Below are positions 3,189-63,832 of a stretch of 64,000 nucleotides of DNA, piece after piece. Under the pieces are notes generated by a model. That model had not been told where the DNA came from, did not search any database, and saw nothing but the letters and a program-made list of their open reading frames with translations. The position numbers and the translations under genes were made by a program. Positions within the stretch are counted from its first letter, which is position 1, and every line of letters begins with the position of its first letter. Source of the DNA: Mycobacterium botniense (GTDB lineage Bacteria > Actinomycetota > Actinomycetes > Mycobacteriales > Mycobacteriaceae); NCBI RefSeq assembly GCF_010723305.1, contig NZ_BLKW01000002.1, forward strand, positions 1,984,001-2,048,000, read 5' to 3'.

Positions 3189-3485
3189 GGTGTCTCGCCT
3201 CTCGCCGGAACGCCGTAGTCGGAGGTGCTGAGCATCTGCTCAACTCTGGCATCAGCCACGGCGGGTGTCAACGACGAATTCGTTTGTGCTAATTCGTGTT
3301 CTAGATTTGAGAGAATAATGTTCTCGGAGTTCGCGGTACCGTGCGATATGCGAACTACGGGGCGGCTGTGACAGGAGCGGCACCGTCGACGGGGGTGAGG
3401 GTGTTCGGATGGGCAACCGACACGGGTGCGGGCAGGCGCCCGGGGGAGGTGGCGACCAGCTACTGAAATACGCGAGCCGCGTTGT
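3189..3485. other. Intergenic region between P450 and TetR genes
   Basis: About 297 bp upstream of the P450 start and downstream of the TetR stop. It holds one GAGAAT-type palindrome (3311-3325). The open frame that can be drawn here on the minus strand has the composition of a shadow and no recognisable motif, so I call no gene. Confidence 0.5.
3311..3325. promoter_or_regulatory. GAGAAT-type palindromic operator (site A)
   Basis: Reads GAGAAT-AAT-GTTCTC, one mismatch from GAGAAT-N3-ATTCTC. It lies 122 bp before the start of the minus-strand P450 (3188). It is the first of a set of related sites across the window. Binding by the neighbouring TetR protein is inferred, not shown. Confidence 0.55.
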
Positions 3486-4238
3486 CTACTCGCTGGTGGC
3501 GTCGCCGGCGAACCCGCGCGAGCAGAATTCCCACACTTCATCCGCCGTGATGGGATGAATCGTTGCGTCGTCGGTCCCGCCACTGGATTGTGCGATGAAC
3601 ATCACGGTTTGCATCGTCATGGCAGCCATCCGCTTCGGGTTGATACCGGGACGTAGCTGTCCGGCTTCGGCGGCGCCTTCCATCAGTTCGGTGAGCAACG
3701 CCAAAAGCGGGGCATGGGCAACTTTGACCTCGGCAGGGTGCGAAACCAGCAAACGCGGCGCGAAGTCAGTGAACAGCGGCCGTTTCGCGTTGGGGTCTGG
3801 TCGTGAGGCCTCGAAGAGCAGCTGAACGGCGACCTTCAACCGCTCGAGCGGATCGGAATGGCTTTCGGTAGCGGCACGGATCTGGTCGGCGGAGCGGCTC
3901 AGGGCGTCTTCGAACAGGGCCAACAGCAGCTCGTGTTTGCCATCGAACTGCAGGTAGAAGCTACGCAGCGACTGCCGGGAGCGGTCGACGACTTCTTGAA
4001 CGGTAAAGTCCGTGCTGCCTTTTTCAATGATGATGGCCTGGGCCGCGTCGAGGAAGCGCTGAACACGCTGCGCTGCCCGCAGTTTTGCCGTCTTAATCGA
4101 GCGCTCGACCGCACGCTGTTTCCAGGCCGGCTCCTCGCTGGGGCTGGTCACGACCGGCTCGGACGATTGCCGTGAAGGGAGAACATGATTGAACTGTACC
4201 GGAGAACGGCGTGACATCGCTGCGCTCGACCCCCTCAC
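3486..4238 (-). CDS. TetR/AcrR family regulator, candidate master regulator of the island
   Basis: Up to 250 aa, longer than the usual 200 because about 50 polar residues precede the DNA-binding domain. The true start may be internal (ATG 4217 or GTG 4151). The helix-turn-helix is around residues 78-101 (FTVQEVVDRSRQSLRSFYLQF), followed by a variable ligand-binding domain. The gene is divergent from an acyl-CoA dehydrogenase; the 145-bp gap holds a perfect GAGAATA-C-TATTCTC palindrome 35 bp before this start. Another copy lies just downstream at 3311. It is the only TetR gene here flanked by that site, so I infer it binds it and represses itself and the regulon until an acyl-CoA-like ligand is present. 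Confidence 0.85.
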   Translation of the reverse strand: MRGSSAAMSRRSPVQFNHVLPSRQSSEPVVTSPSEEPAWKQRAVERSIKTAKLRAAQRVQRFLDAAQAIIIEKGSTDFTVQEVVDRSRQSLRSFYLQFDGKHELLLALFEDALSRSADQIRAATESHSDPLERLKVAVQLLFEASRPDPNAKRPLFTDFAPRLLVSHPAEVKVAHAPLLALLTELMEGAAEAGQLRPGINPKRMAAMTMQTVMFIAQSSGGTDDATIHPITADEVWEFCSRGFAGDATSE

Positions 4239-4273
4239 GGTCGCCGTGTTGGAGATTGTAACTTTCCCGACAC

Positions 4274-4288
4274 GAGAATACTATTCTC
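4274..4288. promoter_or_regulatory. GAGAAT-type palindromic operator (site B), divergent promoter
   Basis: GAGAATA-C-TATTCTC, perfect 7-bp arms around one base. It lies 35 bp before the TetR start (4238) and 95 bp before the dehydrogenase start (4384), which suits control of both directions and autoregulation. Confidence 0.65.
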
Positions 4289-4383
4289 TTAGACGTATTA
4301 ATGGAAGCACATTCGACATCTGGACCTGCCGCTGCAGGTCGAGCGGGAGTTCGCCCGCCGGACGCTGAGTGACAAGGAGAACC

Positions 4384-5568
4384 GTGCAGCTGACATTTGA
4401 CTCCGATGTCGAGGAGTTCCGCGCTGAATTCGCGGCTTTCCTTGATCAGCACCTGCCCGACGAGGCGATGGCGGTTGAGCGACCGCGCTCATGCTCAGAT
4501 ATCCCCGAATGGGCTCGATGCTGGCAGCGGTTGCTGTTCGACCACGGATGGCTGCTGCCCGGCAATCCGCCCGAGTACGGCGGTCGGAATGCCACCATCC
4601 TGCAGCAGTACGTGCACGCCGACGAGCTCTCCCGGCGCCGGATCCATTTGAGTTTCAATCCGCAAGGGGTGGGCATCGTGGCGGCCTCGCTGCTCTCGTT
4701 CGGCTCCGAGGAACAGAAGCGTCGGTGGGCGGCGCCGATCTTGCGGGCGGAGATGACCGCGTCGCTGGGGATGAGCGAACCCGGTGCGGGCTCAGATCTG
4801 GCGTCGCTGCGCACCCGGGCCGTGCTGCGCTCTGATTCGGAAGGCGAGCATTTCGTGGTCAACGGGCAAAAGGTGTGGACGTCGGGCGCCCATGACGCCG
4901 ATGTGTTGCTGACATTCGTACGCACCGACCCGGACTCCCCGAAACATAAGGGAATCAGCGCGCTGTTGATCCCGACTGACGCCCCGGGCGTGGTACGCCG
5001 TCCATTCGCGTCGGCATGTAGCCGCGATGACATCGATTTCAATGAGGTGTTTTTCACCGATGTGCGGGTGCCGGCGGAAAACCTGGTGGGTCCGCTGAAT
5101 CAAGGGTGGCGTGTGGCGACCGGTTCGTTGGGACATGAACGCACCATGCTGTGGATGGGATATGCCGATCGGCTGCGTGAACTACTCATCGATTTCCGGC
5201 CGAAGACAGCGCATAACAGAGATCACTACGCCACTTTGGCGATGGATGCTCAGGCGTTGCGGCTGCTGGGGTCTGTGGCCCTCGCGCGTGCCGATCGGGG
5301 GGAGGAGGACGTGCCGGGTTTGTCGGTGCTCAAACTGCTCGGATCGGAAGCGGTACAGCGCGCCTCCGAACACGCGCTGGCCGCCGCGGGACTCGACGGT
5401 CTGCTCCACCCCGCTGTCACGGGACCGTTCGCGCCGCTGAACCTCGATGCCCACTACGGTAGCTGGTTCGATCGCTACGTCCGAAGCTTTGCTGGCACCA
5501 TCGCGGGCGGTACATCGGAAATCCAGCGCAACATCGTCGCCCAACGAATCCTCGGATTGCCCCGCTGA
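4384..5568 (+). CDS. Acyl-CoA dehydrogenase, orphan large subunit
   Basis: 394 aa flavoprotein for alpha,beta-desaturation of an acyl-CoA. Typical blocks: GMSEPGAGSDLASL (FAD/substrate region), VNGQKVWTSGA, and C-terminal GTIAGGTSEIQRNI. I chose GTG 4384 because AAGGAG (4374-4379) precedes it by 4 bp and because its close paralog at 33480 begins with the same MQLTFDxDVE. The two proteins match over nearly their whole length. The paralog has a small dehydrogenase partner directly upstream; this copy has none, so it may be homomeric or pair with a subunit encoded elsewhere. Controlled from site B. Confidence 0.92.
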   Translation: MQLTFDSDVEEFRAEFAAFLDQHLPDEAMAVERPRSCSDIPEWARCWQRLLFDHGWLLPGNPPEYGGRNATILQQYVHADELSRRRIHLSFNPQGVGIVAASLLSFGSEEQKRRWAAPILRAEMTASLGMSEPGAGSDLASLRTRAVLRSDSEGEHFVVNGQKVWTSGAHDADVLLTFVRTDPDSPKHKGISALLIPTDAPGVVRRPFASACSRDDIDFNEVFFTDVRVPAENLVGPLNQGWRVATGSLGHERTMLWMGYADRLRELLIDFRPKTAHNRDHYATLAMDAQALRLLGSVALARADRGEEDVPGLSVLKLLGSEAVQRASEHALAAAGLDGLLHPAVTGPFAPLNLDAHYGSWFDRYVRSFAGTIAGGTSEIQRNIVAQRILGLPR

Positions 5569-5678: not shown

Positions 5679-6476
5679 TCAGAGGTTCGCCAGTCGAGGC
5701 GCACATCCCTCTGTCCGCAATAGCGCTCCGGCTTCCCGCGTCAATTCTCTTGTGCCGCCGAGCAGTCCGTCGAGAACCAGCGACCGCTTCACGTGGCGAT
5801 GCAGCTCATGTTCTGCGGTGAAGCCGATACCGCCGAGCACCTGCTGGCAGTTGCGTGCGGCCATCAGCGCCGCCTGGCCGGCGGCTGCCTTGGCCAGCAG
5901 GAACCCGAACTCGCCCTGTTCGGCTGCGGCCGCGTGCAACGTCGCCTCTGCGCCTTCAACAGCAACGAGGGTTTCGGCCAGCCGATGCCGGACCGCTTGG
6001 AAGGAGGCGATAGGACGGCCGAACTGGACGCGGTTGAGCGCATGCTGGCGCGCCAGCGAGAGCATCGCGCGGCTGGTGCCTACCAGCCACCATCCCAGTG
6101 CTTGCCGGCCTGCGGTTAAAGGCAGCGGTTTTCCCTCAGAAACACGGTGGATGGGGAGCTCGCTGTCCAGCGCCGAAGTGGGCTTATCGGTTCGCTCCCA
6201 GACAACCCAGCAGCCGCCGGTAAACGGCAGCGCTACGGTGCCGCCGCCGGCGTGGCCGGCGGCACGCAGGACCACGTCGTTGAGCACCGGCGCATGAGCC
6301 CCGGTCTCACCAAGCAGGCGGAACACCAACGGAATCGCCACATCGGGCATTTCCTCGACCATATCCAGCCAGCCCAGTTCTGTCAGAGCCGCATCGAGCT
6401 GGTGGCCTGACACCGCGCTCATGGCTTTGCGTAACGCCTGTTCCAGAAGGCGCAAGGATTCGGTATCCACGATCAT
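5679..6476 (-). CDS. Small acyl-CoA dehydrogenase subunit
   Basis: 265 aa, shorter than the 380-400 of a complete enzyme. The C-terminal helical FAD domain is clear (ALNRVQFGRPIASFQAVRH; CQQVLGGIGFTAEHELHRHVKR). The N-terminal half is abbreviated. Such short members form alpha2beta2 enzymes with a full-length partner in steroid-type degradation (FadE28/FadE29-like pairs). ATG 6476 overlaps the stop of the full-length dehydrogenase upstream by 4 bp (ATGA), supporting a heteromeric pair. It is last in the seven-gene minus-strand operon. The open frame runs further upstream but only within the neighbour. Confidence 0.88.
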   Translation of the reverse strand: MIVDTESLRLLEQALRKAMSAVSGHQLDAALTELGWLDMVEEMPDVAIPLVFRLLGETGAHAPVLNDVVLRAAGHAGGGTVALPFTGGCWVVWERTDKPTSALDSELPIHRVSEGKPLPLTAGRQALGWWLVGTSRAMLSLARQHALNRVQFGRPIASFQAVRHRLAETLVAVEGAEATLHAAAAEQGEFGFLLAKAAAGQAALMAARNCQQVLGGIGFTAEHELHRHVKRSLVLDGLLGGTRELTREAGALLRTEGCAPRLANL

Positions 6477-7561
6477 TCGTTGCCCAGCTCCAAGAGACGG
6501 CGGGCGATGATATTGCGCTGGATCTCTGCCGTCCCTCCGTAGATAGTTGCCGCCCGCGAGTAGAGGTATTCGGGCCGCCATGACGTGTCGTCGAGCTCAA
6601 CCATTCCTGGCAGCAGGTCGCGCACCGTGTCGAAGAGCCGTTGTTCGGCGGTGGCCAGCAGCACCTTGTCGATCGAGGTTTCCGGTCCCAGCCGTTCACC
6701 GTTGGTCAGGCGCTGCAGCGTGGCGCGGGAGCGGCAGCGCAGGATGTGTAGCGCCAAATAGGCCGATCCGAGTTCGAGATCGTCAGGACAGTCTGCCTGC
6801 GCGATGAGTCGGTCGAACCGTGAGTACAAATAGGCGATCCGCTGCCAAAAGCAGGTGGAGCGCTCGTAGGGCAGCAAGTCCATCGCGAGGCGCCAGCCGT
6901 CACCGGGCCGACCGAGGATCCGGCTTTCAGGGACCGCTACGTCGTCGAAGTACACTTCGCAGAACTCGTCGACACCGTGCATGGTGCGCAGCGGCCGCAC
7001 TGTGATACCGGGCGAATCCATGTCCACGAAGAAGGCGGTAAGTCCATCGCGTCCGGACGCCGTGCGGGTGAGCAGCACACACCGCGTGGCATACTGCGCG
7101 AAGCTAGTCCAGACTTTCTGCCCGTTGATGATCCAGTGATCGCCCTGAGCAACCGCGCGGGTGGAAAGCGAAGCCAGGTCACTGCCCGATCCCGGCTCGG
7201 AAAAGCCTTGACACCATTGCTCACGTCCACTGAGCAGACGCGGGATCATCTCGGCGGCGAGTTCGGTGGGCGCGTAATCGATCATTGTGGGCGCGAGCAC
7301 CTCGATCATCGAGTAAGGGCCGGGCTCGGCGAGACCGCGGCCGACGACCTCTTCTCCGACGATCGCGCGCAGCACCGCCGGCCCGCCCAATCCACCTACC
7401 TCGGTCGGCCAGCCGTAGCGCATCCAGCCGGCGTCGTAGAGCGCCCGATGTACCCGGGCAAGCTGCCGTAGCTGGCCCTCCAGCGAATGATCTGGACCTG
7501 GAGTCAGATCATTGTCGTCGAGCCACGCACGCAGCTCCGCCCGGAACCGCTCGACACTCAT
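6473..7561 (-). CDS. Acyl-CoA dehydrogenase, large subunit of a pair
   Basis: 362 aa. Motifs: FSEPGSGSDLASL, INGQKVWTSFAQ, and IYGGTAEIQRNIIARRLL near the C-terminus. ATG 7561 overlaps the preceding NTF2-like gene by 4 bp (ATGA), and its own stop overlaps the small subunit the same way, so the three are translationally coupled. It probably desaturates a CoA thioester produced by the Rieske/amidohydrolase genes of the same operon; that link is inference. Confidence 0.9.
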   Translation of the reverse strand: MSVERFRAELRAWLDDNDLTPGPDHSLEGQLRQLARVHRALYDAGWMRYGWPTEVGGLGGPAVLRAIVGEEVVGRGLAEPGPYSMIEVLAPTMIDYAPTELAAEMIPRLLSGREQWCQGFSEPGSGSDLASLSTRAVAQGDHWIINGQKVWTSFAQYATRCVLLTRTASGRDGLTAFFVDMDSPGITVRPLRTMHGVDEFCEVYFDDVAVPESRILGRPGDGWRLAMDLLPYERSTCFWQRIAYLYSRFDRLIAQADCPDDLELGSAYLALHILRCRSRATLQRLTNGERLGPETSIDKVLLATAEQRLFDTVRDLLPGMVELDDTSWRPEYLYSRAATIYGGTAEIQRNIIARRLLELGNE

Positions 7562-7977
7562 GGGGTGGGGCGGCCGGCGGCGTGCGGACGGCCCGAATCG
7601 TGCGCGCCACTGCGTCGAATGAAGGTCATCGCCCGGCTTTTCAGCCGCCAGCCCTCGGGGGTGCGGACATATGCGTCGCGGTAGTAACCGATCCGCATAT
7701 CGTGGGTCGCGTGCTCGATGAAGCACAGCGGCTGAGTGCCGGTCGCGGTGTCACCGTCGAGATCCACTAACGCGGTCCCGGTCAGGAACAGGCCCTTCGG
7801 TGCGGCAGCGACGAGCTCCGGGAACCTGTCTAGACGGTAGGTGTCCCCGAAAGCGCTATAGGTGCCGTCAGGTGTGAAAACGCTTAGCAGACCCTCGATG
7901 TCCTGCTGGGTAATGGTAACCGCGTAGCGTGCAAGCAACTGCTGGATTTCGACCAGATCGTCAGTCCTTGTTGACAT
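7558..7977 (-). CDS. NTF2-like / SnoaL-like domain protein
   Basis: 139 aa. Cone-fold features: an N-terminal helix with EIQQLLARYAVTIT, then DIEGLLSVFTPDGTYSAFG, and strands ending in RTPEGWRLKSRAMTF. Members act as small hydratases, isomerases or lyases on cyclic substrates, or as non-catalytic partners. The ends overlap both neighbours (17 bp with the amidohydrolase, 4 bp with the dehydrogenase). A role on the ring intermediate of this operon is plausible but unproven. Confidence 0.8.
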   Translation of the reverse strand: MSTRTDDLVEIQQLLARYAVTITQQDIEGLLSVFTPDGTYSAFGDTYRLDRFPELVAAAPKGLFLTGTALVDLDGDTATGTQPLCFIEHATHDMRIGYYRDAYVRTPEGWRLKSRAMTFIRRSGAHDSGRPHAAGRPTP

Positions 7978-9175
7978 AAACCTTGCCGCCCTTCATCACG
8001 AACCCGACGTTTTGAGTCACCGTTATGTCCTGCAACGGATTTCCCGGCACCGCAATCACGTCGGCAAGCATGCCCTCCGCCAGCCGGCCGCGGTCGGTGG
8101 CGAGGATGAGCTCGGCGGCGGTGACGGTCGCGGCGCGGAGCACCGCGGCCGGCGGTATACCGAGCTCGACCAGGGTGACCAACTCGTCAGCGTTGCGCCC
8201 GTGCGGAATTGCGGGCGCGTCGGTGCCGACAGCGATCTTGACCCCGGCCTGGTACGCACTTACCACCGATTTGCGCGCACGCGGAAACATTTCGGCAGCC
8301 TTGGCCTGGAGTTCCGGCGGGGCGCTCGAGACGTCCATCGCGTCGGTCAGGCGCCGAGTGGTCACCAGGAATGTTCCGTGTTTGACCATCGCGGCGATTG
8401 CATCGTCATCGACCAGAAAGCCGTGCTCGATACAGTCGATGCCCGCTGCGACCGCGTGCCGAACGGCGTCGGCGCCATGCGTGTGCGCGGCGACACGGAG
8501 CCCACGCCGATGCGCTTCGTCGACGATCGCACGCAACTCGTCATCTGAATAGTGTTGTGCCCCAGGAGGGCCAGTCAATGACATCACCCCGCCGGAGGCA
8601 CAGACCTTGATCAGTTGCGCACCGTGTTTGATCTGGTACCGCACCGCCCGGCGGACCTCGTCGACACCGTTGGCGATGCCTTCTTCCACTGTGAGCGGCA
8701 GCACGCCCGGTGCGAGCGGCTGAAACATGCTCGGGTCCAAGTGTCCGCCCGTCGGGGTGATCGCATGCCCGGCCGGCACGACCCGCGGGCCCTCGATCCA
8801 GCCCGCGTCGATCGCTTTGCTCAGAGCGACGTCGAGCAGATAGCCGCCGGTTTTCACGAAAAGCCCAAGGTTGCGCACAGTGGTGAACCCGGCACGTAAC
8901 GTGCGGCGGGCATTGCCGACTGCGCGCAGTACCCGGGTGGGCGGGTCGTCTTGCACCTGCGACAGTGCGGGCTTCTCGCCGCGCCCGCCCATCAGGAGGT
9001 TGACCTCCATGTCCATCAGGCCGGGCAGCAGGGTCTGGTCGCCGAGGTCGATCACCTCACCCTCGACGGGGCCGCCGACGCCGACAATGTGTTCGCCGTC
9101 AATGCGAACGACGCCCGGCTGGATGATCTTGCCGGCGTCGACGTCAAGCAGCCCAGCGGCTTTGAGGGTCAGCAC
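7961..9175 (-). CDS. Metal-dependent amidohydrolase-like protein lacking the first HxH motif
   Basis: 404 aa with the imidazolonepropionase/prolidase-type layout: a small beta domain, TIM barrel, and closing beta domain. Retained motifs: IKVCASGG, HTHGADAV, CIEHG and VGTDAPAIPHG. Where the family normally has LPGLIDxHxH, this protein reads LPGLMDMEVNLL (about 52-62), so both His of the first metal site are replaced by Glu and Asn. Either it binds one metal differently or it is not a hydrolase. It lies 3 bp after the 111-aa orphan and overlaps the NTF2-like gene. Family is confident, catalysis doubtful. Confidence 0.82.
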   Translation of the reverse strand: MLTLKAAGLLDVDAGKIIQPGVVRIDGEHIVGVGGPVEGEVIDLGDQTLLPGLMDMEVNLLMGGRGEKPALSQVQDDPPTRVLRAVGNARRTLRAGFTTVRNLGLFVKTGGYLLDVALSKAIDAGWIEGPRVVPAGHAITPTGGHLDPSMFQPLAPGVLPLTVEEGIANGVDEVRRAVRYQIKHGAQLIKVCASGGVMSLTGPPGAQHYSDDELRAIVDEAHRRGLRVAAHTHGADAVRHAVAAGIDCIEHGFLVDDDAIAAMVKHGTFLVTTRRLTDAMDVSSAPPELQAKAAEMFPRARKSVVSAYQAGVKIAVGTDAPAIPHGRNADELVTLVELGIPPAAVLRAATVTAAELILATDRGRLAEGMLADVIAVPGNPLQDITVTQNVGFVMKGGKVYVNKD

Positions 9176-9178
9176 TTT

Positions 9179-9514
9179 TTAAACCACCGGCTCCCTGACC
9201 AGGTTCAGGTAGGTTGCGCCACTGTCGGGCACCTTTGGCTGTTTCCATGCCTCGACCGGGAACGACACCATAATCAATGACTGCATCATATGAAGCAGGG
9301 TGCGAGCATCGTCGGGCAGGTCATCGAGCGGAAATTTGTTGAGGTAGGTGATCGCATCCTCCAAGCGGGGAAACGCGGCGTCATAAAACGCTTGCATCTC
9401 GGCCATGGAGGAAGCCAGCCGCTTGGCGTAGCGTTCGGGCTCAGTTGCCAAGTCCCAGTCAGTAAAAGGCTCCAAGTCTGCAAATTCAGCTGGCAATACT
9501 GGCTTTTCGGCCAT
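9179..9514 (-). CDS. Small conserved-looking protein coupled to the Rieske oxygenase
   Basis: 111 aa, acidic, mostly helical by composition (MAEMQAFYDAAFPRLEDA; DDLPDDARTLLHMMQ). No family recognised. I prefer ATG 9514, preceded at 7 bp by AGGGAG, over the in-frame ATG at 9532. The gene overlaps the end of the Rieske oxygenase by 29 bp and is followed after 3 bp by the amidohydrolase. A role as a small accessory subunit of the oxygenase is only a guess from position; no beta-subunit (cystatin-like) pattern is visible. Confidence 0.7.
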   Translation of the reverse strand: MAEKPVLPAEFADLEPFTDWDLATEPERYAKRLASSMAEMQAFYDAAFPRLEDAITYLNKFPLDDLPDDARTLLHMMQSLIMVSFPVEAWKQPKVPDSGATYLNLVREPVV

Positions 9515-10775
9515 TTTGGTACTCCCTGACATAATCGTGCGCCACTTTGTGCAGGTGGCGCAGCAAAATTTCCTGATCGCAAAGCGGGAACTCTTTGACG
9601 ACGCCGGTGCCGATCATGGTCTGGGTCGCCTCCAAGGTGTTGGAATCTTGCAGCGCATACTCCTTGAAGGTCACCGCTGCCAATTCCTGAGCCAGTCGTT
9701 CCCGGGCGTTCTTCGGTGGAACGAAATAGATGGTCCCTTCGAAGATGTGCCTGTCGACGGCAGTCGGCCAGTAGTGGTAGGTGAGATACCAGCCCGGGGC
9801 CCAGATCAGCAGCATGAAGTTCGGGAAGAAGTGGAACGAATCTATTCCCCACTGGGATGCGCGGGTGGGGTTGATACCGGGGGGCAGCTGCTCGAGCTTC
9901 TGGATGACATCGGGCCGGTCCCAGGGGCCGAACAGCCCGCTGCGCAGTACCCGGTCCATGGGCTTGACCATGTTCAGGTCCGCGGGCGGGGACTGTCCTC
10001 CCCACACGGAGATCATCGCGTGGGGGCTTGCGATCTCGTAGTGCAGCGCCTCGAAGCCGTACTTCATGATCTTGGCTGCTTCTTCTTTGGTGTACTGCCC
10101 CTGGTGCAGTACGGGCGCGTGGTAGAACTCGGCGAATGCATCGATGAACAGCTTCCAGTTGGCTCCCACCTCGGCCTTGTATTGGTAGACCTCAGTCATC
10201 TCGTGGAAGGGGTAGCCCTCGAGACCTTTGGCCAGCGGGCCCAGGTACTCGCGCAGCGGTTGCGCATCCGGATCGAGGTTGACGAAGATAAACCCCTCCC
10301 AGACGTCGCAGCGAACCGGCTTGAGCCCGTATTGGTTTTTGTCGACGTCGAAGAACTCATCTTCTTGCTGGATGAAGGTCAACTCGCCGTCGAGGCTGTA
10401 CCGCCAGGCGTGGTACTTGCAGGTGAATTGCCGACAGGTGCCTGACGTCTCCTCGTGCGGATAGTCATTCCACACCAGCTTGTTGCCGCGGTGACGGCAG
10501 ATGTTGTGGAATGCCTTGATTGACCCGTCCTTGGTCTTGACCACGATCACCGACATGCCGGGGCCGGCCGAGGGCAGCTCCTTGGTGAAGTAGCTGCCAA
10601 CGCGGGGCAGCCGCTCGGTGCGGCCGACGTTGAGCCAGGTCCGCTTGAAGATCGCCTCGCGTTCGGCTTCGAAGAATGCGGGGTCGATGGAATCGGTGTA
10701 ATCGACCGGCGCGGTGCCCAGTTCGGGATAATGCTGTGTCCAGCTTCCGGCTGCTGGTTTGGGAAAATGCGCCAC
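9486..10775 (-). CDS. Rieske non-heme iron oxygenase, catalytic (alpha) subunit
   Basis: 429 aa. Rieske [2Fe-2S] ligands C93-x-H95 and C119-x2-H122. The mononuclear-iron region NWKLFIDAFAEFYHAPVLH gives His219 and His224. The Asp that normally bridges electrons between subunits (second D of DNxxDxYH) is Glu216 here. No beta subunit or reductase is adjacent; a Rieske ferredoxin lies 19 kb away (29329-29721). It is second in the operon after the carboxymuconolactone-decarboxylase-like gene. It should hydroxylate or demethylate a ring or carboxylate substrate; which one is unknown. Confidence 0.92.
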   Translation of the reverse strand: MAHFPKPAAGSWTQHYPELGTAPVDYTDSIDPAFFEAEREAIFKRTWLNVGRTERLPRVGSYFTKELPSAGPGMSVIVVKTKDGSIKAFHNICRHRGNKLVWNDYPHEETSGTCRQFTCKYHAWRYSLDGELTFIQQEDEFFDVDKNQYGLKPVRCDVWEGFIFVNLDPDAQPLREYLGPLAKGLEGYPFHEMTEVYQYKAEVGANWKLFIDAFAEFYHAPVLHQGQYTKEEAAKIMKYGFEALHYEIASPHAMISVWGGQSPPADLNMVKPMDRVLRSGLFGPWDRPDVIQKLEQLPPGINPTRASQWGIDSFHFFPNFMLLIWAPGWYLTYHYWPTAVDRHIFEGTIYFVPPKNARERLAQELAAVTFKEYALQDSNTLEATQTMIGTGVVKEFPLCDQEILLRHLHKVAHDYVREYQNGRKASIAS

Positions 10776-10797
10776 GATCTACCTCTCTTGCTACCTG

Positions 10798-11340
10798 CTA
10801 TCTCAGTTGCTCGGAATCGTCTTCGATCTCGACACCGAAGGTGTTGAACGCCATGGCCAGCAGGGTGTAGCACCCGACCGTGAAAACCAGGTCCATCCGC
10901 TGGCGGTCATTGAGGCGCTCACCCAGCGTGGCCCAGGTCTGGTCGGAGATCTGGGATTTCTCGTCGAGCTCATCGACCGCGGTGAGCACTGCGCCCTCAA
11001 GTCTGTTGGCGGCATCGCCGCGGCGAACCGCGGTGATCTCGTCCTCCGACAGGCCTGCCTCCTTAGCAAGCGCCACATGGTGCACCCATTCGTAGGTGCA
11101 GTCCCGCCGGTGCGCGACCCGCAGGATGGCCAGTTCGCGCAGCCGCGCCGGTAGGGTCGACGCGAACAGCAGATGGGTGTTGAAGCGCAGGAATGCCCGG
11201 GTCAGCGCGGGATGGTGCGCCAGTGTCGCCAGCGCGTTACCAGCGTCACGGGGATTGCGTCGCTCCGCCGGCAGCATGTCGGCGAGCGAGCGCTGCACGG
11301 CGTCGTCCCACTGGTCTGCCGGCAACGGCTGCAAGCGCAT
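10798..11340 (-). CDS. Carboxymuconolactone decarboxylase (AhpD-like) family protein
   Basis: 180 aa, all-helical. The family core is RLRELAILRVAHRRDCTYEWVHHVALAKEAGLSEDE (residues about 66-101), with one Cys and the E-x3-H pair typical of CMD proteins rather than the CxxC of AhpD. Members act as lactone decarboxylases or as small peroxidase-like proteins. It is the first gene of the seven-gene operon, only 23 bp downstream of operator site C and 22 bp before the Rieske oxygenase. Confidence 0.85.
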   Translation of the reverse strand: MRLQPLPADQWDDAVQRSLADMLPAERRNPRDAGNALATLAHHPALTRAFLRFNTHLLFASTLPARLRELAILRVAHRRDCTYEWVHHVALAKEAGLSEDEITAVRRGDAANRLEGAVLTAVDELDEKSQISDQTWATLGERLNDRQRMDLVFTVGCYTLLAMAFNTFGVEIEDDSEQLR

Positions 11341-11363: not shown

Positions 11364-11378
11364 GAGAATCAGATTCTC
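11364..11378. promoter_or_regulatory. GAGAAT-type palindromic operator (site C)
   Basis: GAGAATC-A-GATTCTC, perfect 7-bp arms. It lies 23 bp before the first gene of the minus-strand Rieske operon, in the divergent promoter shared with the plus-strand amidohydrolase at 11601. Confidence 0.65.
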
Positions 11379-11499
11379 ATTTCTAACTAATAGACTTGCA
11401 CGGTTCGACCAAGAGGTCAATGGCGGTCTTCGGACTGGTCGCGAGAAATCGGGGCAGGCCACGGTGGGCGTCGTCGAGCGACCCGGCCTCAGACGTTGA

Positions 11500-11516
11500 T
11501 TCTCGGGAACTGAGAA
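11500..11516. promoter_or_regulatory. Everted repeat TTCTC-N7-GAGAA (site C2)
   Basis: TTCTC-GGGAACT-GAGAA, 84 bp before the amidohydrolase start at 11601. The same half-sites in the same outward arrangement and spacing occur at 53280 and 62185, so this may be a second geometry for the same regulator. Confidence 0.45.
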
Positions 11517-11600
11517 GATAGTTTCCGAAGGTAGAGAACTGCATGGAAGGGCACATGCGGCTCGCCGCAACCGCAGTAGGCGGGATCGAAAGGAACGGCC

Positions 11601-12881
11601 ATGAACAAAGACGACATGATTCTGATCAGCGTCGACGACCACACCGTCGAGCCGCCGGACATGTTCAAGAACCATCTGCCCAAAAAGTACCTGGACGATG
11701 CTCCCCGGCTGGTCCACAACCCCGATGGCTCGGACATGTGGAAGTTTCGCGACACGGTCATCCCCAACGTGGCGCTTAACGCGGTAGCCGGCCGGCCCAA
11801 AGAAGAGTACGGACTCGAACCCCAGGGTCTGGACGAGATCCGGCCGGGTTGCTACAACGTCGACGAGCGGGTCAAGGACATGAATGCGGGCGGCATCCTC
11901 GCCTCGATCTGCTTCCCATCCTTCCCGGGGTTTGCCGGGCGCCTGTTCGCCACTGACGACCCGGAGTTCTCGGTCGCTCTCGTGCAGGCCTATAACGACT
12001 GGCACATCGAGGATTGGTGCGGCGCGTACCCGGCCCGGTTCATCCCAATGGCGTTACCGGTGATCTGGGATGCTGAGGCGTGCGCTGCGGAGGTGCGGCG
12101 CGTCTCGAAGAAAGGCGTGCACGCGCTGACGTTCACCGAAAACCCCGCAGCGATGGGTTACCCGAGCTTCCACGACCCCTACTGGAACCCGCTGTGGAAG
12201 GCATTGTGTGACACCAACACCGTGCTGAACGTACACATCGGATCCTCGGGCAAATTGGCGATTACCGCGCCCGACGCACCGATGGACGTGATGATCACCC
12301 TGCAGCCGATGAACATTGTGCAAGCGGCTGCGGATCTGCTGTGGTCTAAACCGATCAAGGAGTACCCGGACCTGAAGATCGCTTTGAGCGAAGGCGGAAC
12401 CGGATGGATTCCCTACTTCCTGGAGCGGGTGGACCGGACGTTCGAAATGCATTCAACGTGGACGCATCAGGACTTCGGCGGCAAGCTGCCGTCAGAGGTG
12501 TTCCGCGAGCATTTCCTGACATGTTTCATCAGCGATCCCGTGGGTGTGAAGCTACGCCATGAGATCGGCGTCGACAACATCGCATGGGAGGCCGATTACC
12601 CGCACAGTGACTCGATGTGGCCGGGCGCACCCGAGGAGCTGTGGGATGTTCTGAGCGCCAACAACGTTCCCGACGACGAGATCAACAAGATCACCCACGA
12701 AAACGCGATGCGCTGGTACTCGTTCGACCCGTTCGCGCACATCTCCAAGGAGCAGGCGACAGTCGGCGCGCTGCGTAAAGCGGCCGAGGGCCACGATGTG
12801 TCGATTCGGGCACTTAGCCACCACAAGGCGGGTGAGCGGACGATGAACGCGCTGACCCAGGCAGCTCAGGCCACCAGCTAG
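11601..12881 (+). CDS. Amidohydrolase family 2 (ACMSD-like) protein
   Basis: 426 aa, TIM-barrel amidohydrolase of the decarboxylase/hydrolase group (PF04909 type). Landmarks: DDHTVEPPDMF near the N-terminus, HIGSSG in the middle, SEGGTGWIPYFLERVDR, and WEADYPHSDSMWP carrying the metal Asp. Members decarboxylate or hydrolyse ring-cleavage products. It is the first plus-strand gene after the divergent promoter with sites C and C2, and leads into the beta-oxidation genes that follow after 92 bp. Three more members of this superfamily lie in the window (29722, 30889, 63854). Confidence 0.9.
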   Translation: MNKDDMILISVDDHTVEPPDMFKNHLPKKYLDDAPRLVHNPDGSDMWKFRDTVIPNVALNAVAGRPKEEYGLEPQGLDEIRPGCYNVDERVKDMNAGGILASICFPSFPGFAGRLFATDDPEFSVALVQAYNDWHIEDWCGAYPARFIPMALPVIWDAEACAAEVRRVSKKGVHALTFTENPAAMGYPSFHDPYWNPLWKALCDTNTVLNVHIGSSGKLAITAPDAPMDVMITLQPMNIVQAAADLLWSKPIKEYPDLKIALSEGGTGWIPYFLERVDRTFEMHSTWTHQDFGGKLPSEVFREHFLTCFISDPVGVKLRHEIGVDNIAWEADYPHSDSMWPGAPEELWDVLSANNVPDDEINKITHENAMRWYSFDPFAHISKEQATVGALRKAAEGHDVSIRALSHHKAGERTMNALTQAAQATS

Positions 12882-12973
12882 GTTCAACGCGCCTCAAAGA
12901 CGCAGAATCGCACGGCTGAGTGCAGCAACCGTGTGGATCTGTGCTTGCCCGGATTGGGACGTAAAGGATCTCC

Positions 12974-14167
12974 ATGCCCAGCAGCGGAATGAATTTCGAA
13001 CTTACCGAAGATCAGCAACTGATCCGGCGGTCGGTTGCTGAGCTCGCGCAGAAGTTCGACGACCACTACTGGATGCAAAAAGACCAGGCACACGAGTTTC
13101 CCACCGAGTTCTACCGCGCCATCGCCGATGGCGGCTGGCTGGGTATGACGATCCCCGTCGAGTACGGTGGTCACGGACTGGGCATCACCGAAGCCACCCT
13201 GCTGGCCGAGGAGGTTGCCAAATCCGGTGGAGGCATGAACGCCGCCAGCTCGATTCACCTTTCTATCTTCGGTATGCAGCCCGTGGTGGTGCACGGCTCC
13301 GAAGACCTCAAGTGCCGCACCCTGCCCCGCGTCGTCACCGGTGATCTGCATGTGTGTTTCGGGGTGACCGAACCCGGTGCCGGGCTGGACACCTCACGCA
13401 TCACCACGTTCGCCAAGCGGCAGGGCGATCATTATGTCGTCAACGGCCGTAAGGTGTGGATCTCCAAAGCCCTGGAGTCCGAAAAGATCCTGCTGTTGAC
13501 GCGCACCGAGACCTACGACCAACTGGCGAAGAGAGGTGCCAAGAAGACCGACGGGATGACGCTGTTTCTCACCGACCTGGATCGCAGCCGGGTCGACATC
13601 CGGCCTATTCGCAAGATGGGCCGTAACGCCGTGTCCTCTAACGAGCTTTTCATCGACAACCTGAAGGTGCCGGTTGAGGATCGTGTCGGGGAGGAAGGCA
13701 AGGGATTCGAGTACATTCTCGACGGGCTAAACCCGGAACGGATGCTGATCGCCGCCGAGGCCCTGGGCATCGGCCGGGTTGCACTGGATCGAGCGGTCAA
13801 ATACGCCGGCGAGCGTGAGGTGTTCGGCCGCCCGATCGGCATGAACCAGGGTATCCAGTTTCCGCTCGCCGACTCGCTAGCTCGGCTGGACGCCGCCGAG
13901 CTGATGTTGCGGAAGGCGACCTGGCTCTACGACAACGGGAAACCCTGTGGACGCGAGGCGAACACTGCGAAGTACTTGTGCGCCGACGCCGGCTTCACCG
14001 CAGCTGACCGGGCGCTTCAAACCCATGGCGGAATGGGCTATGCCGAGGAATACCACGTGGCTCGTTACTTTCGCGAAGCCAGGCTGATGAAGATCGCCCC
14101 GGTCAGCCAGGAGATGATCCTCAACTACCTGGGATCGCACACACTGAAACTGCCGAGGAGCTACTGA
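12974..14167 (+). CDS. Acyl-CoA dehydrogenase
   Basis: 397 aa, full-length FAD enzyme. Motifs: VTEPGAGLDTSRI, VNGRKVWISKA, AGEREVFGRPIGMNQG, LQTHGGMGYAEEYHVARYFRE. ATG 12974 is preceded by AAAGGA. It resembles ordinary medium-chain dehydrogenases rather than the divergent paired ones elsewhere in the window. Its stop TGA shares a base with the ATG of the SDR that follows, so the two are coupled. Likely the first step of side-chain beta-oxidation in this plus-strand block. Confidence 0.9.
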   Translation: MPSSGMNFELTEDQQLIRRSVAELAQKFDDHYWMQKDQAHEFPTEFYRAIADGGWLGMTIPVEYGGHGLGITEATLLAEEVAKSGGGMNAASSIHLSIFGMQPVVVHGSEDLKCRTLPRVVTGDLHVCFGVTEPGAGLDTSRITTFAKRQGDHYVVNGRKVWISKALESEKILLLTRTETYDQLAKRGAKKTDGMTLFLTDLDRSRVDIRPIRKMGRNAVSSNELFIDNLKVPVEDRVGEEGKGFEYILDGLNPERMLIAAEALGIGRVALDRAVKYAGEREVFGRPIGMNQGIQFPLADSLARLDAAELMLRKATWLYDNGKPCGREANTAKYLCADAGFTAADRALQTHGGMGYAEEYHVARYFREARLMKIAPVSQEMILNYLGSHTLKLPRSY

Positions 14168-17482: not shown

Positions 17483-17500
17483 AGAGTCAGAGGAGAGGCC

Positions 17501-29311: not shown

Positions 29312-29328
29312 GTGCCTTCCTCCCAACC

Positions 29329-30867: not shown

Positions 30868-30888
30868 TGTGGTTCTCCTTGCTCACTT

Positions 30889-32465: not shown

Positions 32466-32497
32466 ACCATGGTGGTGACGGTGAGGAGGCGGCCCGG

Positions 32498-38361: not shown

Positions 38362-38393
38362 GAAATTATCCAACGTGCGTCGAGGAGGCCGGA

Positions 38394-42195: not shown

Positions 42196-42205
42196 GGGAC
42201 TGTCC

Positions 42206-43063: not shown

Positions 43064-43072
43064 GGAGGCTGG

Positions 43073-53094: not shown

Positions 53095-53279
53095 GGTGAC
53101 CTCCTCATCGGTGCGGGTCGTGCACGGAGAACCACATTATCACTAGATGGGCGCTGGCCAGATTGGCGAATCTCCACCATGGATGGCTCTAAGCTGCGTA
53201 AACACTGACTAGACCGAGGGCACAGCGAGGATGGCACCGGTGAGCCAGGAGGGCGCAGCGGCCCTCGGGACAGGTGATC

Positions 53280-53296
53280 TTCTCCAAATAGGAGAA
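53280..53296. promoter_or_regulatory. Everted repeat TTCTCC-N5-GGAGAA (site G)
   Basis: TTCTCC-AAATA-GGAGAA, perfect 6-bp arms. It lies 30 bp before the exported-protein start at 53327 and 185 bp before the divergent Mce-associated operon (53094). Same arrangement and spacing as the sites at 11500 and 62185. Confidence 0.5.
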
Positions 53297-53326
53297 TTTT
53301 GTTTTCGGTTGTGCCACAGTATTGGC

Positions 53327-61435: not shown

Positions 61436-62161
61436 TTATCGCGGATTGCTACTGGGGTTCAGCGCCCGGTCTGCGGCCCGCCAGTGCGCATCGTCAACCC
61501 ATAGCTGCGCAAAGGCTTTCACCGCTTCCTCGGCGGACACCCCGCCGATGACGCGCTTGATCTCCATCGCCGGGCGCTTGGCAAGCTTTTTGGCAATCTG
61601 CCGCCACCCCTGCTCGAAGGACGAGCGGGGCAGGATTTCGTCGATCAGCCCGATGCGTTGGGCCTCGGTGGCCTCGAGCACCGTGCCGGTGCCCGCTAGC
61701 AGCAGTGCCCGGTTCTTGCCGACCAAAGCCGCCAGCCGTTCGGCTCCGCCCCACGCCGGCATGATCTCCAGGGCCACCTGGTTGAAACCGATCTTGATGT
61801 CGTCGGCCGCCAGGCGGATGTCGGCGGCCACCGCGACCTCGGCGCCCCCGCCGAGTGCGTGACCATTCAGCGCGGCGATCACCGGGGCGGGAAAGCTTGC
61901 GATCCGGTCGCATATCGCCCGCATCCGCCACGCCATCGCGGCGGCGTCGTCCGCTGTTCTGATGGCGCTGAGTTCCTTGAGGTCGCCGCCCGAAACGAAT
62001 GCTCGGTCACCGGCGCCCCGGATGACCAGAGTGTGCGCTCCCGCGGCGGCATCGAGGGCTTGCTCCAGCTGTGCCATGGTATCCAGCGCAATGGCATTGC
62101 GGGCATGCGGGCGGTCAATGGTGAGCACCGCGAGCCCGTGGTCGAGTTCCAAGTCCACCAT
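61436..62161 (-). CDS. Enoyl-CoA hydratase/isomerase family protein
   Basis: 241 aa crotonase-fold protein. FVSGGDLKEL and ALNGHALGGGAEVAVAADIRLAA form the oxyanion hole; the FNQVALEIMPAWGGAERLAALVG segment contains the Glu usual in hydratases. Divergent from the acyl-CoA synthetase; an everted repeat of the GAGAA type lies 23 bp before its start. Likely serves beta-oxidation of the CoA ester made by the divergent synthetase. Confidence 0.9.
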   Translation of the reverse strand: MVDLELDHGLAVLTIDRPHARNAIALDTMAQLEQALDAAAGAHTLVIRGAGDRAFVSGGDLKELSAIRTADDAAAMAWRMRAICDRIASFPAPVIAALNGHALGGGAEVAVAADIRLAADDIKIGFNQVALEIMPAWGGAERLAALVGKNRALLLAGTGTVLEATEAQRIGLIDEILPRSSFEQGWRQIAKKLAKRPAMEIKRVIGGVSAEEAVKAFAQLWVDDAHWRAADRALNPSSNPR

Positions 62162-62184: not shown

Positions 62185-62203
62185 ATTCTCCTCAGCGGAG
62201 AAT
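62185..62203. promoter_or_regulatory. Everted repeat ATTCTCC-N5-GGAGAAT (site H)
   Basis: ATTCTCC-TCAGC-GGAGAAT, perfect 7-bp arms. It is 23 bp before the hydratase start (62161) and 75 bp before the synthetase start (62279). Same half-sites and spacing as 11500 and 53280. Confidence 0.55.
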
Positions 62204-62215
62204 AGCATCACCTTA

Positions 62216-62248
62216 CTGTCTTGAGACTGTCTTGAGACTGTCTCGAGG
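62216..62248. repeat. 11-bp direct repeat, three copies
   Basis: CTGTCTTGAGA at 62216-62226 and 62227-62237, then a third, one-mismatch copy CTGTCTCGAG from 62238. It lies between site H and the synthetase start. Could be a protein-binding array or replication slippage. Confidence 0.7.
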
Positions 62249-62278
62249 ACATGACATTGTGCCCGGCGGAGCCTCACG

Positions 62279-63817
62279 ATGCGTGATATTCCGGTGGAAC
62301 TGGCCATGCACTATGCCGCAGCAGGCTGGTGGACCCACGACACCCTTGGCCAGTTGCTGGCCCGCGGCCTAGCCGCCGCCCCGAGCAGCCAGTTTCGGGT
62401 GCACTCCGCAGTGCGCCCCTGGTCCGGAACGTTCGGCGACGTCGAGCGGATCGCGCGCCGGCTGGCTGCGGGATTGTCTGCGCGCGGCGTCGGTCCGGGT
62501 GACGTGGTGGCATTCCAGCTGCCGAACTGGATGGAAGCTGCTGCGACATTCTGGGCGTCGGCGTTTCTGGGCGCGGTCGTGGTTCCCATCGTGCATTTCT
62601 ACGGCCGCAAAGAACTGGCACACATTCTGCGCACTGCGCAACCGCGCGTGTTCATCACCGCCGAACGGTTCGACCGCATGACCTATCACCCCGACCTGTG
62701 TGCGGACATTCCCATCGTCGGCCTGGTCGGACGCGATTTCGAAGGGTTGCTCGCCGACGAGCCCATGCCGGGCACTATCCCCACCGATCCCGGCCACCCG
62801 GCGCTGATCGCCTTCACCTCTGGCACCACGGCCGATCCCAAAGGCGTCATTCACAGTCACCAGACGCTGGGCTGCGAGACCCGGCAACTCTACGACGGGT
62901 ACCCGCCGAATCGGGGGCGGGAGCTCACCGCGACTCCGGTGGGGCACTTCATCGGAATGCTCAGCGCCTTGTTGGTGCCCGTGCTCGAGGGTGGGGCGAT
63001 CAACCTGTGCGACACCTGGGATCCGGCCCGGGTCCTCGAGCTGATGAGGACTGACGGTTTGGCCATCGGAGGTGGTCCTCCCTACTTCTTCACCAGCCTG
63101 CTCGACCATCCCGACTTCGCCGAAGACCACCTGCGCAGCATTCGGGCCGTCGGTCTGGGCGGAGCACCGGTACCGGCTGCAGTCACCCGCCGGCTCGATG
63201 AGCTCGGTATTCATGTCTTCCGCTCCTATGGCAGCAGCGAACACCCGTCGATCACCTTGACGCCGCACGACGCTCCGGCGGAAAAGCGCCTGTTTACCGA
63301 CGGGGTTCCCCGGCCGGGGGTGGAGGTTCGGCTCTCACCCGACGGCGAGGTTCTCAGCCGCGGCCCAGACCTGTTCCTGGGCTATACCGATGACGCGCTG
63401 ACCGCGGCGGCGTTCGACGATGACGGCTGGTATCACACCGGCGATATCGGCGTCATCGACGCTGATGGGTACCTCACCATCACGGATCGCAAGGCCGACG
63501 TGATCATCCGTGGCGGCGAAAATATCAGTGCCGCTGAAGTCGAAGAAGTGCTGTTGGCATTGCCGGGGGTGGCCGAGGCGGTGGTGGTCGGTGCGCCCGA
63601 CGCCGGGTTTGGTGAACGAGTCGCCGCCGTGTTGCGTCGCAGACCGGGACACACTCTGCCGACCCTCGACCAGGTTCGCGCTCATTTCGCCGGGGTGGGA
63701 GTGGCACGGCAGAAGTGGCCGGAAATCCTGCTGGAGGTCGATGACTATCCGCGCACGGCGAGTGGCAAGGTGCAAAAGCGGCTGGTCCGTGAGGGGATTG
63801 CAGTACGCACTAAATGA
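62279..63817 (+). CDS. Acyl-CoA synthetase (AMP-forming, ANL family)
   Basis: 512 aa. ATP loop FTSGTTADPKGV (179-190), adenylate motif YGSSEHP, hinge/Asp region WYHTGDIGVIDADGYLTITDRKADVIIRGGENIS, and catalytic Lys in RTASGKVQKR near the end. It activates an acid to an acyl-AMP and then CoA thioester. The usual YGxTE motif reads YGSSE. ATG 62279 follows the divergent promoter with site H. Its stop codon lies within the operator of the next gene. Confidence 0.92.
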   Translation: MRDIPVELAMHYAAAGWWTHDTLGQLLARGLAAAPSSQFRVHSAVRPWSGTFGDVERIARRLAAGLSARGVGPGDVVAFQLPNWMEAAATFWASAFLGAVVVPIVHFYGRKELAHILRTAQPRVFITAERFDRMTYHPDLCADIPIVGLVGRDFEGLLADEPMPGTIPTDPGHPALIAFTSGTTADPKGVIHSHQTLGCETRQLYDGYPPNRGRELTATPVGHFIGMLSALLVPVLEGGAINLCDTWDPARVLELMRTDGLAIGGGPPYFFTSLLDHPDFAEDHLRSIRAVGLGGAPVPAAVTRRLDELGIHVFRSYGSSEHPSITLTPHDAPAEKRLFTDGVPRPGVEVRLSPDGEVLSRGPDLFLGYTDDALTAAAFDDDGWYHTGDIGVIDADGYLTITDRKADVIIRGGENISAAEVEEVLLALPGVAEAVVVGAPDAGFGERVAAVLRRRPGHTLPTLDQVRAHFAGVGVARQKWPEILLEVDDYPRTASGKVQKRLVREGIAVRTK

Positions 63818-63832
63818 GAATATGATTCTCAT
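63814..63832. promoter_or_regulatory. GAGAAT-type palindromic operator (site I)
   Basis: ATGAGAAT-ATG-ATTCTCAT, perfect 8-bp arms, the longest match in the window. It overlaps the synthetase stop codon (TGA 63815-63817) and ends 21 bp before the next gene's start at 63854. Confidence 0.7.

Follow-up and report, generated by a model that had tools for sequence, protein, structure and literature searches.

A candidate TetR-family regulon marked by the palindrome GAGAAT-N3-ATTCTC in a lipid import and catabolism cluster of Mycobacterium botniense

The window analyzed here, a 64,000-nucleotide stretch of the Mycobacterium botniense genome, contains genes for cytochromes P450, acyl-CoA dehydrogenases (ACADs), a Rieske oxygenase, amidohydrolases, and YrbE/Mce importer components, together with a TetR-family regulator (Table 1). 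Its ferredoxins are of two types, CXXHXXC and CXXFXXC. In NCBIfam, nothing scored over the cut-off for the P450s, the Rieske protein, or the two amidohydrolases scanned, and no Rfam family was over threshold within the window. A possible reductase for the Rieske oxygenase lies ∼60 kb away.

Table 1 Genes and candidate operators of the window (IR3, inverted form; everted form, ATTCTC-N7-GAGAAT; G and L handles denote genomes and loci)
Feature	Position	Strand	Remarks
Cytochrome P450	1986..3188	-	
Candidate operator IR3, 1 mismatch, 25.2 bits	3311..3325	.	before P450 1986-3188; kept in G006, G126, G029
TetR-family regulator, proposed regulon repressor	3486..4217	-	TetR_N over cut-off; ORF extends to 4238
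Degenerate second operator-like element	4252..4266	.	22 bp from 4274; 9/12 matches; mostly near-invariant columns in 79 loci
Candidate operator IR3, exact	4274..4288	.	TetR/acyl-CoA dehydrogenase divergent promoter; kept in 6/6 genomes
Acyl-CoA dehydrogenase	4369..5568	+	
CMD, Rieske oxygenase, small protein, amidohydrolase, two acyl-CoA dehydrogenases	5679..11340	-	
Candidate operator IR3, exact	11364..11378	.	before CMD/Rieske operon and divergent amidohydrolase operon; 5/6 genomes assigned
Candidate everted operator, 1 mismatch	11499..11517	.	84 bp before amidohydrolase 11601
Amidohydrolase, ACAD, SDR, CoA-transferase III piece, ECH, thiolase, ACAD	11601..18649	+	
Candidate operator IR3, 2 mismatches	20209..20223	.	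before CYP150A-like P450; kept only in G126, with 1 mismatch
P450 (closest solved chain CYP150A6) and CXXHXXC ferredoxin	20242..21710	+	
Two Amidohydro_2 proteins, 130-aa protein, alpha/beta hydrolase	28445..31986	-	
Candidate operator IR3, 1 mismatch	32155..32169	.	before amidohydrolase pair 30889/29722 (minus strand)
Candidate operator IR3, exact	32451..32465	.	before acyl-CoA dehydrogenase pair; degenerate partner at 32429
Two acyl-CoA dehydrogenases	32490..34655	+	first start approximate
SDR, CXXHXXC ferredoxin (36235-36561), P450	34862..38138	-	∼0.9 kb unannotated between SDR and ferredoxin
Candidate operator IR3, 2 mismatches, 20.3 bits	38190..38204	.	before SDR-ferredoxin-P450 operon (minus strand)
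Weak operator-like site, 2 mismatches, 10.6 bits	38287..38301	.	intergenic region shared with 38190
Candidate tandem operator	38334..38370	.	38356 IR3 (1 mismatch) and degenerate partner 38334; before ALDH/CoA-transferase/mce block
Aldehyde dehydrogenase, CoA-transferase, YrbE/Mce importer genes	38394..50915	+	4 of these genes scanned
Weak candidate operator IR3, 2 mismatches, 15.0 bits	53127..53141	.	between gene 52234-53094 and next gene
Candidate everted operator (1 mismatch) overlapping weak IR3 at 53292	53279..53306	.	near 5' end of small gene
Enoyl-CoA hydratase	61436..62161	-	
Candidate everted operator, exact	62185..62203	.	between enoyl-CoA hydratase 61436-62161 and acyl-CoA ligase 62279-63817
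Acyl-CoA ligase (AMP-binding)	62279..63817	+	
Candidate operator IR3, exact	63816..63830	.	before amidohydrolase (ATG at 63854)

A preliminary description had placed a 15-bp palindrome, GAGAAT-N3-ATTCTC, at eight intergenic positions. All eight sites are present, four of them as exact copies, two with one mismatch, and two with two mismatches, but three coordinates had to be corrected (20205 to 20209, 38191 to 38190, and 63814 to 63816). Each of the eight indeed reads as standing ahead of a gene or between two genes, once two points are allowed for: site 63816 overlaps the final 2 bases of the acyl-CoA ligase gene, and sites 32155 and 32451 fall inside an ORF that was called too long, its real start lying further downstream (Pfam match from about residue 137; low codon scores). 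Five further IR3 sites, at 38356 (1 mismatch) and at 38287, 53127, 53292, and 62176 (2 mismatches), were absent from the earlier list, as were sites beyond the window and the everted form.

At ≤3 mismatches, the window contains 24 matches, whereas 100 shuffles averaged 11.6 and never exceeded 21. The loosest (3-mismatch) matches are thus mostly chance, while the strong ones are not, and a matrix trained on other genomes was therefore used instead. Within the 177 kb around and including the window, this matrix found 17 matches scoring ≥10 and 14 scoring ≥12, each against a simulated mean of 0.4 (5 simulations). A reversed-pattern control yielded 1 match in 118 genomes for each motif (inverted and everted); because this control is imperfect in GC-rich DNA, a Markov simulation and TetR-negative genomes were added. 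On the scale of the 4.335-Mb genome, 9 of 11 sites with ≤1 mismatch fall within one 115-kb stretch (binomial 3e-13, for an interval picked after seeing the data). The motif is not equally common inside genes: 10 of the 11 sites stand before genes, allowing for over-long ORFs at three sites and a 2-base overlap at one. Outside the cluster region, 28 of the 33 sites listed fall inside a called ORF, matching chance, and 31 have 2 mismatches.

The sites are conserved before orthologous genes: at nine promoters, a site is retained in three to six of the six other mycobacteria compared. Among 118 genomes, the exact palindrome was found in 93 of 95 that encode the window TetR versus 2 of 23 that do not (Fisher 6e-19, with the genomes related and kinship ignored). 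The exact site precedes the TetR gene in 79 of 80 named loci; a site with ≤2 mismatches was found at 28 of 30 TetR loci examined and one with ≤1 mismatch at 26, the two loci with no site at ≤2 mismatches being L041 and a distant match, L051. Two TetR-positive genomes (G080 and G113) had no exact site, and in two others (G026 and G087) the single exact inverted site is not located at TetR. A homolog of amidohydrolase 11601 was not found at E 1e-100 in G080, G087, or G113; in G026, an amidohydrolase at 91% adjoins TetR, with just an everted element (1 mismatch). When 21 of the 23 TetR-negative genomes were searched with the same amidohydrolase (E 1e-100), 19 had no match, and 2 had proteins 46 to 47% identical to it. 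Since TetR-negative genomes also lack the pathway, site loss there may simply be promoter loss.

Some of the conservation flanking 4274 may reflect promoter elements. It is very improbable that the palindrome itself is part of a core promoter, with TATTCT as a -10 box kept for RNA polymerase: although a T precedes the right arm, giving TATTCT, in ∼44% of distinct sites and many sites are close to start codons, neither dyad symmetry with two perfect arms and a fixed 3-bp spacer, nor a single regional cluster, nor dependence on one TetR across genomes is expected of such an element.

The TetR protein itself has an N-terminal helix-turn-helix domain and probably starts at Met8 (codon 4215-4217), which is invariant in 23 of 23 aligned sequences. 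Residues 72 to 112 are unchanged in 27 of 29 ortholog loci and residues 57 to 112 in 21, this genome included; the other 20 orthologs with identical residues 57 to 112 are 83 to 92% identical overall. The palindrome is present at the TetR promoter and at the promoters of several operons, as expected of a TetR regulon. Three lines of evidence thus back the suggestion that this TetR (3486-4238) acts as the regulator, with binding predicted: its co-occurrence with the sites, the sites in front of its own gene, and the strong conservation of its DNA-binding domain. A structure model (pLDDT 70.6) matches many TetR chains, KstR2 among them, with Z scores so closely tied that no ligand is deduced from the fold.

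Could another regulator, either the TetR at 18745-19359 or one beyond the window, bind the palindrome and TetR 3486 be merely a target? There are more TetR genes in and near the cluster, and autoregulation of TetR 3486 is a prediction, but we consider this unlikely given how regularly TetR 3486 loci hold a site and how well its presence predicts sites across the 118 genomes. Moreover, in G016 and G022, an extra TetR copy with helix-turn-helix changes D85E and D99N adjoins an altered palindrome, GAGAAGnnnCTTCTC, but a half-altered palindrome also occurs in L043, where the TetR does not have the D85E and D99N changes. The TetR at 18745-19359, the second in the cluster, may be a co-regulator.

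The motif had been said to differ from those of KstR and KstR2, and the published motifs agree. The KstR motif is given as TnnAACnnGTTnnA, a 14-bp TAGAAC-N2-GTTCTA (PMC1995591), and that of KstR2 as AnCAAGnnCTTGnT, with three promoter regions and 15 genes (PMC3068626); the common core GAGAAT/ATTCTC was set apart from the latter by eye. Just one KstR-like palindrome (≤2 mismatches) occurs in the 177 kb, where inverted GAGAAT arms are found 17 times with spacer 3 and never with spacer 2. Judged by protein score or motif, the window TetR is neither KstR nor KstR2; for KstR, it scores 20.2 bits against a curated cut-off of 280, and a KstR over that cut-off (339 bits) is encoded 325 kb away. That the sites are drifted KstR or KstR2 operators, forming a branch of the cholesterol regulon, is very improbable. 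The KstR half-site AGAAC does resemble AGAAT (PMC1995591), and KstR2 is one of several structural matches that score almost equally, but the spacers, the KstR2 motif, and the separate KstR gene all disagree with this origin, as does the absence of the motif from 23 of 118 genomes, whereas KstR is reported from all analyzed mycobacteria but M. leprae (PMC3388012).

In organization, the proposed regulon resembles that described for KstR (PMC1995591), with a TetR autorepressor (predicted here), genes of lipid catabolism, many divergent promoters that carry a short palindrome, and mycobacteria-wide conservation. As reported for KstR2 (PMC3068626), a TetR repressor (again predicted) would act on operators that lie between divergent genes of a lipid-catabolic cluster. 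Unlike KstR, the system here has a 15-bp rather than a 14-bp palindrome, a different protein, and an everted form; unlike KstR2, it spans about a dozen intergenic regions.

The everted form, ATTCTC-N7-GAGAAT, appears to be a second operator alongside the inverted one. It was found in 88 of 95 TetR-positive versus 1 of 23 TetR-negative genomes and precedes a homolog of enoyl-CoA hydratase 61436 in 25 of 30 loci, this genome included. Elements similar to the one at 11499 occur in L165, L175, L185, L194, L202, and L249. The small gene at the everted site 53279 is called from 53231, with its start unsure, and has no Pfam match; an exact everted site lies before 55 to 59% identical homologs of it in 3 of 30 loci. 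The palindrome sites also tend to carry what look like extra half-sites on a 22-bp repeat: in this genome, 4 of 17 sites have a partner at exactly 22 bp versus 2 matches over the other 45 offsets together. A tentative reading, to which we give slightly less than even odds, is that the repressor reads a half-site lattice, with side-by-side dimers on one DNA face every 22 bp and two geometries, inverted and everted, and that this tunes promoter strength in a genus-wide regulon for a cyclic-lipid pathway with Mce import. To judge by titles, QacR (1jt0), DarR (8svd), and an EthR octamer are cases of cooperative TetR binding with more than one dimer per DNA stretch; unlike in those cases, multi-dimer binding here is predicted from the 22-bp half-site spacing.

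The sequences themselves show the sites and where they lie, how well they are conserved, that they co-occur with TetR, and that a 22-bp spacing is preferred. The proposal of a large regulon linking lipid import to catabolism is supported, having withstood both the comparison of intergenic and coding DNA and the search for sites before orthologs. We consider it about 80% probable that an autorepressed TetR regulon, with the palindrome as its operator, governs the uptake of a cyclic lipid through Mce and its oxidation. A dimer of TetR 3486-4217 would bind GAGAAT-N3-ATTCTC as a repressor, and pairs of dimers would occupy half-sites on the 22-bp repeat, including those of the everted form. In this way, TetR would silence its own gene along with about a dozen, often divergent, intergenic regions, which would drive Mce import, CoA activation, P450/Rieske hydroxylation, and beta-oxidation-like and amidohydrolase steps on the cyclic lipid. 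TetR would be released by an intermediate of the pathway, for which a CoA thioester is the likeliest candidate, so that import and catabolism are induced together. We infer TetR binding, repression rather than activation, the ligand, and the substrate.

If true, these findings would identify the regulator, operator code, and member genes of a large orphan catabolic system in mycobacteria, with P450s and a Rieske oxygenase, amidohydrolases and acyl-CoA dehydrogenases, and an Mce importer. To our knowledge, the substrates of most Mce importers are unknown; where a repressor is shared, an importer can be linked to a pathway, and the ligand of that repressor would indicate the substrate. The operator set would also be a natural series for studying cooperative TetR binding.

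The substrate may be terpenoid- or steroid-like. P450 20242 is closest to CYP150A6, and CYP150A5, of the same family, hydroxylates beta-ionone (PMC6237146). The same source describes M. marinum CYP188A3, CYP190A3, and CYP150A5 ferredoxin genes within Mmar_4716-4736, which are of the P450 and ferredoxin kinds seen in the window and suggest synteny with it; its account of these genes concerns electron transfer and names no regulator or operator. A plasmid search for substrate clues gave one Rhodococcus ruber plasmid with ACAD/SDR genes at 74% DNA identity and no annotation naming a substrate; the best Rieske relative among the best 25 of 939 records was 38.6% identical. The palindrome, in 6 spellings, was not found in open-licence literature; where GAGAAT or ATTCTC appears in the Mycobacterium papers PMC4757040 and PMC7020754, the occurrences seen are unrelated short sites or probes. 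Two candidate members were set aside. An operon with HsaD/MhpC-like, MhpA, MhpB, and KstD-like genes (∼-19.5 to -14 kb) is not claimed as part of the regulon because it has just a 4-mismatch palindrome here; it carries a site in G126 and G016. Similarly, a flavin-reductase-like gene carries a site in G006 and G029, and its ortholog here has none (≤4 mismatches) near its start.

All eight palindrome sites (GAGAAT-N3-ATTCTC) named in the preliminary description are present in the window, four of them exact, two with one mismatch, and two with two; five of the coordinates were right, and three needed a shift of 1 to 4 bases. A scoring matrix trained on 218 distinct sites from other genomes was run over 176,852 bases of Mycobacterium botniense (the window, 80 kb before it, and 33 kb after it). 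It found 17 sites scoring at least 10 and 14 scoring at least 12, against a mean of 0.4 at either threshold for five third-order Markov sequences; 13 of the 17 lie in the window. In a set of 137 distinct intergenic sites, the arms show almost no variation, and all three spacer bases vary.

Across the 4.335-Mb genome, 54 places match with ≤2 mismatches (6 exact, 5 with one, the remainder with two), and 9 of the 11 best (≤1 mismatch) fall within contig 2, 1,933,146 to 2,047,830. The suggestion that the sites lie between genes was borne out by a check of 50 of the 54 places: 7 of the 17 in the region of the window lie within a called open reading frame (ORF), versus 28 of the 33 outside it. We read five of these seven as lying before genes, those at -45734, 32155, 32451, and 53292 because the called ORF extends too far in the 5′ direction and that at 63816 because the ORF overlaps the site by only two bases; we read -55947 and -3953 (negative positions precede the window) as inside genes. 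The codon score exceeds the fifth percentile of coding DNA at 3 of the 17 places, and 22 of the 33 outside score as coding. The exact site at 1,500,050 precedes a phosphotransferase-like gene; a one-mismatch site on contig 4 is doubtful.

The proposed conservation before orthologous genes was seen in six other Mycobacterium genomes (G006, G031, G126, G029, G012, and G016), which hold 76 sites with ≤1 mismatch, 69 of them inside the fetched stretches: the site is kept in 3 to 6 genomes at nine promoters and in one at P450 20242. No gene could be assigned to the remaining sites, either through failure of the simple gene caller or through absence of the gene from the reference set; some are intragenic (L189). 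In G006 and G029, a site stands 24 to 25 bp upstream of the gene for a 163-residue protein (L170, L199, and L245), presumably of the flavin-reductase-like family; there is no site at its M. botniense ortholog (G000:C2:1393335).

Promoters with a conserved site and 22-bp site pairs of M. botniense (window coordinates)
Feature	Coordinates	Genomes with site at homolog (of 6)
Reductase/acyl-CoA ligase		6
TetR/ACAD		6
Amidohydrolase/ACAD	30889/32108/33480	6
SDR/thiolase/MeaB block		5
CMD-Rieske/amidohydrolase		5
SDR/ALDH-mce		4
Phosphotransferase-like		4
P450	1986	3
ECH/amidohydrolase	63836	3
P450	20242	1
22-bp pair	4252/4274	
22-bp pair	32429/32451	
22-bp pair	38334/38356	
22-bp pair	62176/62198	

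The gene for the proposed repressor, TetR (3486 to 4238), sits between two palindrome sites. TetR is present in 95 of 118 genomes of the genus (E ≤ 1e-70); the exact motif occurs in 93 of these, G080 and G113 being the exceptions. Of the 23 TetR-negative genomes, 2 have it (G068 and G094, one each), three of the 23 having been identified by elimination (Fisher p = 6e-19, computed without correction for kinship). The TetR-negative genomes are also without the pathway: an amidohydrolase search (E 1e-100) of 21 of the 23 gave two matches only, at 46 to 47% identity. At this threshold, the amidohydrolase is absent from the TetR-positive G080, G087, and G113, which have none or one exact site each. 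Since regulator, sites, and pathway are gained or lost jointly, the co-occurrence supports one unit and does not single out TetR itself. The local evidence at the TetR locus, the upstream operator and the conserved residues, is stronger. Of the 80 named loci, the closest 80 of 405 relatives, 79 have the exact core upstream of TetR (exception, L091). Residues 57 to 112 are identical in 21 of 29 ortholog loci, with one or two differences in the other 8, and residues 72 to 112 are altered in L045 and L046 only. Both loci, from G016 and G022, hold an additional TetR copy with D85E and D99N, and an altered palindrome, GAGAAGnnnCTTCTC, adjoins the extra copies (L045, L046, and L209). The paired changes in protein and site hint at TetR-operator coevolution, possibly a natural specificity switch. 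In G026 (L041 and L249), TetR and amidohydrolase orthologs are adjacent without an inverted site, and only a one-mismatch everted element is found. A second TetR, with a BetI-type C terminus, directly follows the 11601 operon (18745 to 19359), and a distant paralog (35% identity; G000:C4:563602-564165) has a two-mismatch site, GAGAATGAGATTACC, ∼84 bp upstream (L237:1501).

A second element, its columns mostly near-invariant, adjoins the TetR operator. Around 78 sites, 22 bp was the most frequent of 38 partner distances (18 partners matching at 8 or more of 12 positions; the runner-up, 21 bp, had 7). With the cut of 8 fixed beforehand from this overlapping set, 4 of 17 M. botniense sites have a partner at exactly 22 bp versus two matches across the other 45 offsets (Poisson 1.7e-4, corrected for 46 offsets). 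Since 22 bp spans about two turns of DNA, two dimers would share one DNA face, and they may bind cooperatively. Half-site pairs in 58 stretches of the six genomes, chosen by inverted spacer 3, peak at inverted 3 (69, the selection spacer), everted 7 (24), everted 29 (8), and direct-repeat spacers 16 (7) and 15 (6), with 0.2 to 0.3 pairs per spacer in simulation. Inverted 24 (11), inverted 25 (5), and everted 13 (6) are also raised and count against a simple lattice picture; a 22-bp repeat gives inverted 25 and everted 29, a 21-bp repeat gives inverted 24 and direct 15, and neither gives everted 13. Over the 177 kb of M. botniense, with two mismatches, everted spacer 7 ranks first (12), closely followed by 12 (10) and 13 (8), both likewise above expectation (mean, 2.9); 7 is also the best flanking half-site distance at 13 inverted sites (mean, 3.69 of 6 matches; 1.4 to 2.8 at the remaining distances within 1 to 23). 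The exact everted form (ATTCTC-N7-GAGAAT) occurs in 88 of 95 TetR-positive versus 1 of 23 TetR-negative genomes. Matches were found in 89 genomes; in the loci fetched for 30 of them, it precedes a homolog of ECH 61436 in 25 (M. botniense included) and a 55 to 59% homolog of 53231 in 3; 2, one from the TetR-negative G116, have no gene assignment.

The proposed system is like KstR in its autorepressing TetR, divergent promoters, and lipid import plus oxidation. Identity with KstR or KstR2 was ruled out by protein score and motif, in agreement with the initial view that the motif differs from both. Six spellings of the motif are absent from the open-licence literature, and no such regulon appeared among the papers listed by further searches of it. 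Within that literature, a KstR-like TetR regulon with this motif is new; its operator layout may turn out to be a variant.

The regulon products are P450s, acyl-CoA dehydrogenases, a Rieske oxygenase, a CMD protein, amidohydrolases, SDRs, CoA-transferases, ECH, thiolases, acyl-CoA ligases, an aldehyde dehydrogenase, and YrbE/Mce proteins. The Rieske protein is similar to carnitine/betaine and aromatic oxygenases; no ketosteroid hydroxylase is named among its listed matches. A candidate partner for it is a reductase resembling PaaE and GbcB (under their cut-offs), fronted by an exact site 60 kb from the Rieske gene. P450 20242 matches CYP150A6 (E 5e-165). Three unusual ferredoxins (two CXXHXXC, one CXXFXXC) are similar to those that PMC6237146 places beside CYP188A3, CYP190A3, and CYP150A5 in M. 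marinum (Mmar_4716-4736), where the CYP150A5 product is 4-hydroxy-beta-ionone. An aromatic-ring module joins the regulon in two of the six relatives (G126 and G016); that of M. botniense has MhpA and MhpB above cut-off and a KstD-like protein. Taken together, these gene products, protein likenesses, and the module give about an even chance that the substrate is cyclic, terpenoid- or steroid-like.

One operon (L019:459-7002) encodes an HsaD/MhpC-like hydrolase, MhpA, MhpB, a KstD-like dehydrogenase, and a luciferase-like enzyme; its homologs carry the operator in G126 and G016, and the M. botniense copy has only a 4-mismatch palindrome between TTGACA- and TATATA-like boxes. A Mce protein gene ∼40 kb before the window (L018:774-2099 and downstream) apparently belongs to a second mce operon (one gene scanned). 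At 24665 to 26335, a ChsH2-like (DUF35) part is fused to a thiolase/lipid-transfer part, whereas in the solved relative 6ok1 the two are separate chains.
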